The position numbers and the translations under genes were made by a program. Under the pieces are notes generated by a model, which saw only the letters and a list, made by a program, of their open reading frames with translations, was not told the origin of the DNA and did not search any database. From Agromyces protaetiae (GTDB lineage Bacteria > Actinomycetota > Actinomycetes > Actinomycetales > Microbacteriaceae), in contig NZ_CP133018.1 of the NCBI RefSeq assembly GCF_030866785.1, positions 2,480,001 through 2,544,000 on the forward strand: a DNA stretch of 64,000 nucleotides. The letters run 5' to 3'. Positions 1 through 3,944 of this stretch are shown here, one piece after another. Within the stretch, counting starts at the first letter, position 1; the number at the start of each line of letters is the position of its first letter.

Positions 1-1710
<1,710 letters not shown>

Positions 1711-1716
1711 CTCAGA

Positions 1717-1739
1717 AGTCTAAATACGACCACCGACAC
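1717..1739 (-). promoter_or_regulatory. uvrA promoter matching the RecA-independent DNA-damage motif
   Basis: On the minus strand the sequence reads GTGTCGGTG, eight bases, then TAGACT, with the GTG start codon of uvrA six bases after TAGACT. This fits the mycobacterial RecA-NDp consensus TTGTCRGTG-N8-TAnnnT (recognised by PafBC) at every fixed position except the first T. The same element, with identical spacing, precedes uvrB. Confidence 0.75.
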
Positions 1740-1765
1740 GGCCGACCGGATCGCACGTGCTCTCA

Positions 1766-1781
1766 GCGAACATACGTTCGA
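1766..1781. promoter_or_regulatory. LexA (SOS) box upstream of uvrA
   Basis: GCGAACATACGTTCGA matches the actinobacterial/Gram-positive LexA operator TCGAACRNNYGTTCGA at all but the first base, including the central A....C. It lies between the uvrB stop and uvrA, 27 bp upstream of the PafBC-type motif. It may cover a second uvrA promoter (TATGTT inside the box could act as a -10). I saw no other full box in the window. Confidence 0.75.
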
Positions 1782-1800: not shown

Positions 1801-3867
<2,067 letters not shown>

Positions 3868-3874
3868 GCGACCA

Positions 3875-3897
3875 AGTCTATGGAGCCCCACCGACAC
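3875..3897 (-). promoter_or_regulatory. uvrB promoter matching the RecA-independent DNA-damage motif
   Basis: Minus-strand GTGTCGGTG-N8-TAGACT, then seven bases to ATG 3867. The core is identical to the uvrA element and fits TTGTCRGTG-N8-TAnnnT except for the first base. It sits in the 77-bp gap after coaE. No LexA box is visible here. Confidence 0.75.
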
Positions 3898-3944
3898 GTC
3901 GGCCGGGGTTCGCTGAGAGCGACCGCGGCCGAGGCATCCGCCCG

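Follow-up and report, generated by a model that had tools for sequence, protein, structure and literature searches.

PafBC is activated by single-stranded DNA and lets RNA polymerase carrying sigma-A use promoters with a -26 motif, PafB touching the motif and PafC sigma domain 4 (PMC11804915); the consensus of these promoters has been quoted as TGTCRGTG-N8-TANNNT (PMC5656591). Recognition of the RecA-independent P1 promoter by ClgR has been reported (Wang 2011, cited in PMC5656591), a statement that comes there with no mention of a separate operator, and in 2017 the relation between PafBC and ClgR was left open among independent action, concerted binding and an indirect effect (PMC5656591). 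For ClgR, an operator consensus, WNNWMGCYNNNRGCGWWS, and a clpC1 site, GGTTCGCCGCCAGCGAACG, have been described (PMC2905415). A review names recA, uvrA and uvrC as mycobacterial genes under both PafBC and SOS control (PMC8223512), in line with a preliminary description of the DNA studied here, which mentioned such dual control for a few mycobacterial genes, so that control of uvrA by both LexA and PafBC belongs to a type already described. What appears to be new, judging from the sequence, is the overlap of a LexA box with a ClgR-type operator, together with the pairing of ClgR-type and PafBC-type sites at uvrA and uvrB in Microbacteriaceae. A full-text literature search judged by titles, with most subscription journals outside its scope, returned no case of overlapping LexA and ClgR operators.

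The window, that is, the whole 64,000-nucleotide stretch of Agromyces protaetiae DNA analysed, contains the 5' part of uvrA and, next to it, uvrB (Table 1). The 90 bp between the two genes hold a LexA box and a PafBC-type motif on the minus strand, in the order TCGAACGTATGTTCGC, then TGTCGGTG-N8-TAGACT, six nucleotides and the GTG of uvrA. Since a TAG in the uvrA frame sits inside the -10 hexamer, an earlier start is ruled out and this GTG is the only uvrA start there. The locus was compared with an Agromyces-like group, defined as the 60 genomes of the genus-level group of the window genome (itself G000), and with 31 regions with flanks (the window and 30 loci) from it. A family set of 100 Microbacteriaceae genomes yielded uvrA in 96, with 34 of these 96 loci placed by match coordinates or a looser expression, and a set of 80 loci from named genomes left 50 that passed the filter, families being taken from record titles and a locus titled Planococcus (L016) counted as Microbacteriaceae. 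Among the 80 named loci listed, the closest named relative is Agromyces italicus (95% over 200 aa).

Table 1. Genes and candidate regulatory sites of the uvrA–uvrB region (window coordinates).
Feature	Position	Strand	Remarks
uvrA, 5' part	1..1710	-	Runs off the window; GTG start 1708-1710; NCBIfam TIGR00630 UvrA, 772 bits on the 569 aa present
-10 element TAGACT	1717..1722	-	6 nt before GTG, leaderless geometry; 6 nt in 31/31 group regions
-26 element TGTCGG of PafBC-type promoter	1733..1738	-	Exact consensus; whole motif 1717-1738
ClgR-type operator GTTCGCTGAGAGCACGT	1755..1771	-	Strong arm GTTCGC 1766-1771; 16 bp upstream of PafBC motif; 10.6 bits
LexA box TCGAACGTATGTTCGC	1766..1781	-	One mismatch to TCGAACNNNNGTTCGA; 11/12 specified bases; 1766-1771 common to ClgR-type operator
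uvrB	1801..3867	-	ATG 3865-3867; NCBIfam UvrB, 1059 bits
Exact PafBC-type motif of uvrB	3875..3896	-	7 nt before ATG 3867; genome 2483875-2483896
ClgR-type operator GGTCGCTCTCAGCGAAC	3908..3924	-	11 bp upstream of uvrB PafBC motif; strict consensus match; 8.5 bits

The preliminary description had a PafBC-type promoter leading directly into the uvrA GTG, and its coordinates proved right and its leaderless geometry is supported: the motif matches the consensus exactly, in the orientation of the gene and with its -10 element at a distance from the start that is the same in every group region with flanks. With +1 assumed at 1710, TGTCGG falls at -28 to -23. The 4.18-Mb genome has ten exact matches to the consensus, two of them in the window ahead of uvrA and uvrB, and 93 with up to one mismatch, against 16 for the pattern written backwards; from these genome rates we estimate the chance of an exact motif on the right strand of a 90-bp gap at about 1e-4. 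The site is confirmed as sequence, and binding of PafBC to it is predicted. A weak terminator-like stem at 1732-1746 of the minus strand covers the -26 region and points at uvrA.

Across the family, 63 of the 96 uvrA genes are preceded by TGTC[ACG]G-N9/10-TAnnnT with an in-frame start 4-10 nt further on, a reversed motif gave 0/96, and the -10 element is separated from the start by 6 or 7 nt in 61 of the 63. A leaderless PafBC-type promoter therefore looks like an old feature of uvrA in Microbacteriaceae. Sixteen of the 63 (L203, L210, L216, L232 and others) have the shorter spacing TGTCGGTG-N7 before the -10 element, 14 of them with 7 nt to the start; the start still comes 28 nt after TGTC, so only the -10 element shifts, by one base. 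Other variants were seen at uvrA of the named genomes. In Curtobacterium, Brevibacterium, Kutzneria and a Streptomyces (L013, L020, L046, L048, L082) the form is TGTCRGAC-N8-TAnnnT, which may be the PafBC site there, and in four Micrococcaceae (L031, L033, L041, L042), in which no PafBC motif was found at uvrA with up to two mismatches, a palindrome like TCGAAGAAGTTTTCGA stands directly before a -10-like hexamer. Exact PafBC motifs also occur at other kinds of genes: one ends 6 nt before the start of a gene for an AlkZ-like DNA glycosylase (L085, 1529-2614), and another (L084, 1501-1522, minus strand) precedes a small gene of unknown function, with TCGAACGTAGGTT, most of a LexA box, in its spacer and -10 element.

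The near-perfect LexA box of the preliminary description also holds, both in its 11 of 12 bases and in its conservation in the group, and its distance from the promoter is the described 27 bp when counted from TGTC, or 26 bp from the GTGTC with which that description began the motif. LexA boxes with up to one mismatch number 85 in the genome against 9 for the control, and the chance of one falling in the 90-bp gap is about 2e-3, again estimated from genome rates. As sequence the box is confirmed, and its binding by LexA and the resulting repression are predicted. It occupies -71 to -56 if +1 is 1710; lying 56-71 bp before the putative start, it is upstream of the core promoter, beyond the -26 and -10 elements.

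Conservation is stronger evidence than either chance estimate. The combined pattern (GAACnnnnGTTC, 20-40 bp, TGTCnGnG-N8-TAnnnT) is present at uvrA in 50 of the 60 group genomes and never when reversed, with a total length of 63 bp in 44 of the 50 and 62 bp in the other 6, and GTTC and TGTC are separated by 29 bp in 27 of the 31 regions with flanks and by 28 bp in the remaining 4. In the same 31 regions the box lies anywhere from 1 to 93 bp beyond the uvrB stop, so that indels are common beside the sites and not between them. Mean pairwise identity over the variable part of the gap is 55%, so the gap keeps its length and drifts in sequence. Such fixed spacing could reflect a constraint on each element rather than an interplay between them. 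Ten genomes lack the exact pattern: one pairs a LexA box with a PafBC motif changed at two bases (G023), two have TCGAAG in place of TCGAAC in the box (G041, G050), four have a PafBC motif without the left half of the box (G005, G006, G015, G039), one has a PafBC motif only (G030) and one neither site (G017), and in the last one (G056) UvrA had no match at the cut-off used.

Beyond the group the double arrangement is rarer. With up to two mismatches allowed in the LexA box, the 96 family uvrA regions divide into 58 with PafBC only, 10 with LexA only, 5 with both and 23 with neither; in two of the five (G112, G131) the box overlaps the PafBC motif and looks like a chance match, leaving the window genome, G023 and G067. 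The two-site pattern occurs in 30 of 398 genomes and 11 of 85 genera of the family (reversed control 2), one member of another genus (G422) having the identical 63-bp layout at uvrA, and other matches stand before genes resembling, by eye, ruvA, radA and that of an SOS-associated peptidase. In two loci of another genus (L177, L178) a LexA-type core lies 19 bp before a PafBC motif that ends 6 nt from the ATG of a ruvA-like gene (by eye). A universal spacing rule for LexA and PafBC sites was rejected, as the 18 double sites fetched from genes other than uvrA have gaps of 19 to 44 bp; eight of them are at 27-29 bp, four of these being relatives of one oxidoreductase-like gene in which the LexA box is doubtful.

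The right half of the LexA box, the six bases GTTCGC, is at the same time the strong arm of a ClgR-type operator, placed at -61 to -45 if +1 is 1710. Directly right of the LexA core, GCT and AGC are invariant in all 44 aligned 63-bp sequences (GTTCGCTnnnAGC), and where the invariant GCT stands a LexA box would call for GTTCGA (GA). Five of the six 62-bp forms read GTTCGCCnnnAGC (GCCnnnAGC), and one (G028) is without the element, according to a reading of the pattern listing. Only one arm of the uvrA element is strong, the distal one (GCACGT) departing from GCGAAC, and in the window genome the element fails the strict ClgR consensus at the last base; asymmetry is also seen in the clpP1 sites. 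So that the scoring motif would not come from uvrA itself, a profile was trained on 15 clpP1 promoter sites, with the template NNNYGCYNNNRGCGAAC chosen after an earlier round of clpP1 matches had been viewed. A ClgR-type site lies upstream of clpP1 in all 15 genomes (13 exact to the template, 2 with one mismatch), and 12 clpP1 loci have a best match within three mismatches of GTTCGCYNNNRGCGAAC, which is expected in 7.4% of shuffled 400-bp stretches.

This clpP1 profile reaches at least 8 bits at 23 of the 63 Microbacteriaceae uvrA promoters (0.85 expected; 1/63 in a control window), and 17 of the 23 matches are centred 20-21 or 24-25 bp before TGTC. A strict 14-base core stands upstream of the PafBC motif in 16/63 (0.30 expected with a maximum of 3 in 500 simulations, control window 2/63), and the excess is smaller for the looser 11-base core MGCYNNNRGCG (21/63, null mean 3.7 and maximum 12, control window 7/63). 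Within the group, 26 of the 31 regions score at least 8 bits and 29 best matches begin at -33 or -32, and among named genomes with a PafBC motif at uvrA the element is present in 11 of 22 Microbacteriaceae versus 3 of 28 other actinomycetes, two of the latter being Cellulomonas. Counting against a ClgR reading, 40 of the 63 family promoters and 5 of the 31 group regions (one without any match) stay below 8 bits, the A. italicus element scores 7.7 bits, and 1.8% of 2086 70-bp windows of the genome reach 8 bits as background. A one-mismatch pattern of the element is no commoner in the whole window than chance (5 matches, 6.2 expected), and the case for ClgR therefore rests on position and conservation, not on rarity; a genome-wide pattern allowing three mismatches gave too many matches (1310 against 379 in the control) and was left unused. 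None of the other eight exact PafBC motifs of the genome has an element of at least 8 bits (best 6.3), so the idea that the element is a general feature of PafBC promoters is not borne out in this genome (0/8).

The four group genomes without the LexA left half (G005, G006, G015, G039) have unrelated bases at its position and keep the element at the same distance (28-29 bp from GTTC to TGTC), with 9.5 to 15.6 bits. Taken with the occurrence of the element in other genera, this points to the ClgR-type site as the older one and to a LexA box made by adding TCGAAC on its left; a possible alternative order is that the LexA half was lost in these four. At uvrA of two Cellulomonas genomes (L061, L066) a LexA-like box lies 1-2 bp before the PafBC motif and overlaps a weak ClgR-type match, with TCGAAC common to both, perhaps an independent case of LexA/ClgR overlap.

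At uvrB the ClgR-type element is inverted relative to that of uvrA, and no LexA box with up to two mismatches was found near the uvrB start. Among the best-scoring 30 of 97 genomes with a match, 29 have the uvrB PafBC motif and, as a raw count, 7 the strict ClgR core.

The genome encodes LexA (230 bits, NCBIfam) and RecA (574 bits), and further LexA boxes with one mismatch are located ahead of recA and close to the lexA start. A PafB-like protein and PafC are encoded by adjacent genes, both with WYL and WCX domains and the second with HTH_PafC. A ClgR-like protein has ClgR as its best NCBIfam match (101.7 bits, below the curated cut-off of 170), and its gene follows pgsA- and cinA-like genes and precedes recA (names by eye). 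Linkage of pafBC with Pup genes is typical and is not required for the promoter; a search of the genome for PF05639 and PF03136 (Pup and the Pup ligase PafA) gave no match. PafBC-type promoters are thus kept in a genome in which neither Pup nor Pup ligase was found.

From the sites, their conservation, spacing and overlap, we infer the scheme that follows, including its binding events, where transcription starts, the competition and the sign of each effect, and we give it an even chance: LexA would compete with ClgR upstream of a leaderless PafBC promoter at uvrA. After damage, PafBC activated by single-stranded DNA would recruit sigma-A RNA polymerase to the -26/-10 element, and ClgR would activate from its operator further upstream, contributing an input from proteolytic stress. 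In the Agromyces-like group a LexA half-site stands directly left of this operator, and because both sites share GTTCGC, LexA and ClgR are expected to exclude each other. The main effect of LexA would then be to exclude ClgR, or to interfere with upstream contacts of the polymerase, with no second promoter being blocked, and DNA damage would both cleave LexA and activate PafBC. Put more broadly, a ClgR operator beside a PafBC promoter may have become a site of LexA/ClgR competition through one LexA half-site on the shared GTTCGC, so that proteolytic stress and both damage pathways would converge on uvrA in a genome in which no Pup was found; this three-input switch is put forward tentatively, with a probability that we place a little short of even. 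The earlier account of uvrA in terms of two damage-response sites stands as far as it goes, and it had missed both the ClgR-type operator sharing GTTCGC and the PafBC and ClgR-type pair at uvrB.

One alternative is that uvrA has two independent promoters like mycobacterial recA, in which P1 is the PafBC promoter and P2 the LexA/RecA one (PMC11804915), LexA repressing a P2 near 1766-1800 and PafBC driving the leaderless P1. A -10-like TATGTT does lie inside the LexA box and is kept in 36 of the 50 genomes, but it is altered in the other 14, a simple sigma-70 consensus scan of 1690-1900 found no promoter-like pair, and in the 31 group regions no column ahead of the box's invariant TC carries more than 0.83 bits, and the best match to a -35 element, looked for 15-19 bp before the centre of the box, has just 1-4 of 6 bases. 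Furthermore, by eye, the leader of such a P2 would have no ribosome site, and P2 would need no fixed spacing of 28-29 bp to P1. The lack of a promoter-like pair and of conserved sequence upstream of the box makes the recA-like model less likely at uvrA, and we consider it improbable. The preliminary description had LexA blocking one promoter while PafBC drove the leaderless one, and only the latter half of this finds a counterpart in the sequence.

We think it equally improbable that the LexA box is real and GTTCGCTnnnAGC an extended LexA site, or that of an unknown factor, control being by LexA and PafBC only. The weak distal arm in the group and an assignment to ClgR made from motif likeness alone would agree with this, but the element occurs without a LexA box in many genera, in four sister genomes and at uvrB of the window, and it matches the clpP1 sites of the same family. 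Less likely still is that the box is weakly bound or silent and uvrA responds in practice to PafBC only, as the overproduction of M. tuberculosis UvrA in a recA deletion (PMC8151990) and the 58 family regions with a PafBC motif and no box might indicate, against which 50 of the 60 group genomes retain the LexA core, with near-fixed spacing, amid drifting flanking DNA.

The competition of LexA with ClgR beside a PafBC promoter would mean that several alarm systems may compete to switch on one repair gene, uvrA. Separate ClgR-type operators at preferred distances from the PafBC motifs of uvrA and uvrB make the question of ClgR and PafBC directly testable in this family, and the Agromyces-like group, where some genomes have the LexA half-site and others lack it, is a natural series in which it could be followed how a repressor site may grow from an activator site.

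Compared with the P1 and P2 promoters of mycobacterial recA, the locus is alike in that both damage systems would act on one repair gene, and recA of this same genome, with a LexA box upstream and a PafBC motif starting 90 bp after the box start, resembles its mycobacterial counterpart. Mycobacterial recA is described as having two promoters, whereas uvrA here has no conserved second promoter, a gap of 28-29 bp and a start codon at the putative transcript start. In S. venezuelae, uvrA has a LexA ChIP peak and box, as here it has a box, but unlike here the initial search of that work found the PafBC motif not conserved (PMC9380542). With mycobacterial uvrA the locus shares the gene and the same two systems, as that gene is presented in the review (PMC8223512); at the present locus a near-perfect box stands next to a ClgR-type site. 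Ten Mycobacterium-type uvrA loci of the named set have a PafBC motif with up to one mismatch in 7 cases and a LexA box with up to two mismatches within 330 bp in none, which sits uneasily with that review. With respect to the ClgR regulon (clpP1P2, clpC1), the elements at uvrA and uvrB, like the 15 clpP1 sites, are similar to the consensus WNNWMGCYNNNRGCGWWS, and what sets uvrA apart is the position of the putative operator next to a PafBC motif and a LexA box.
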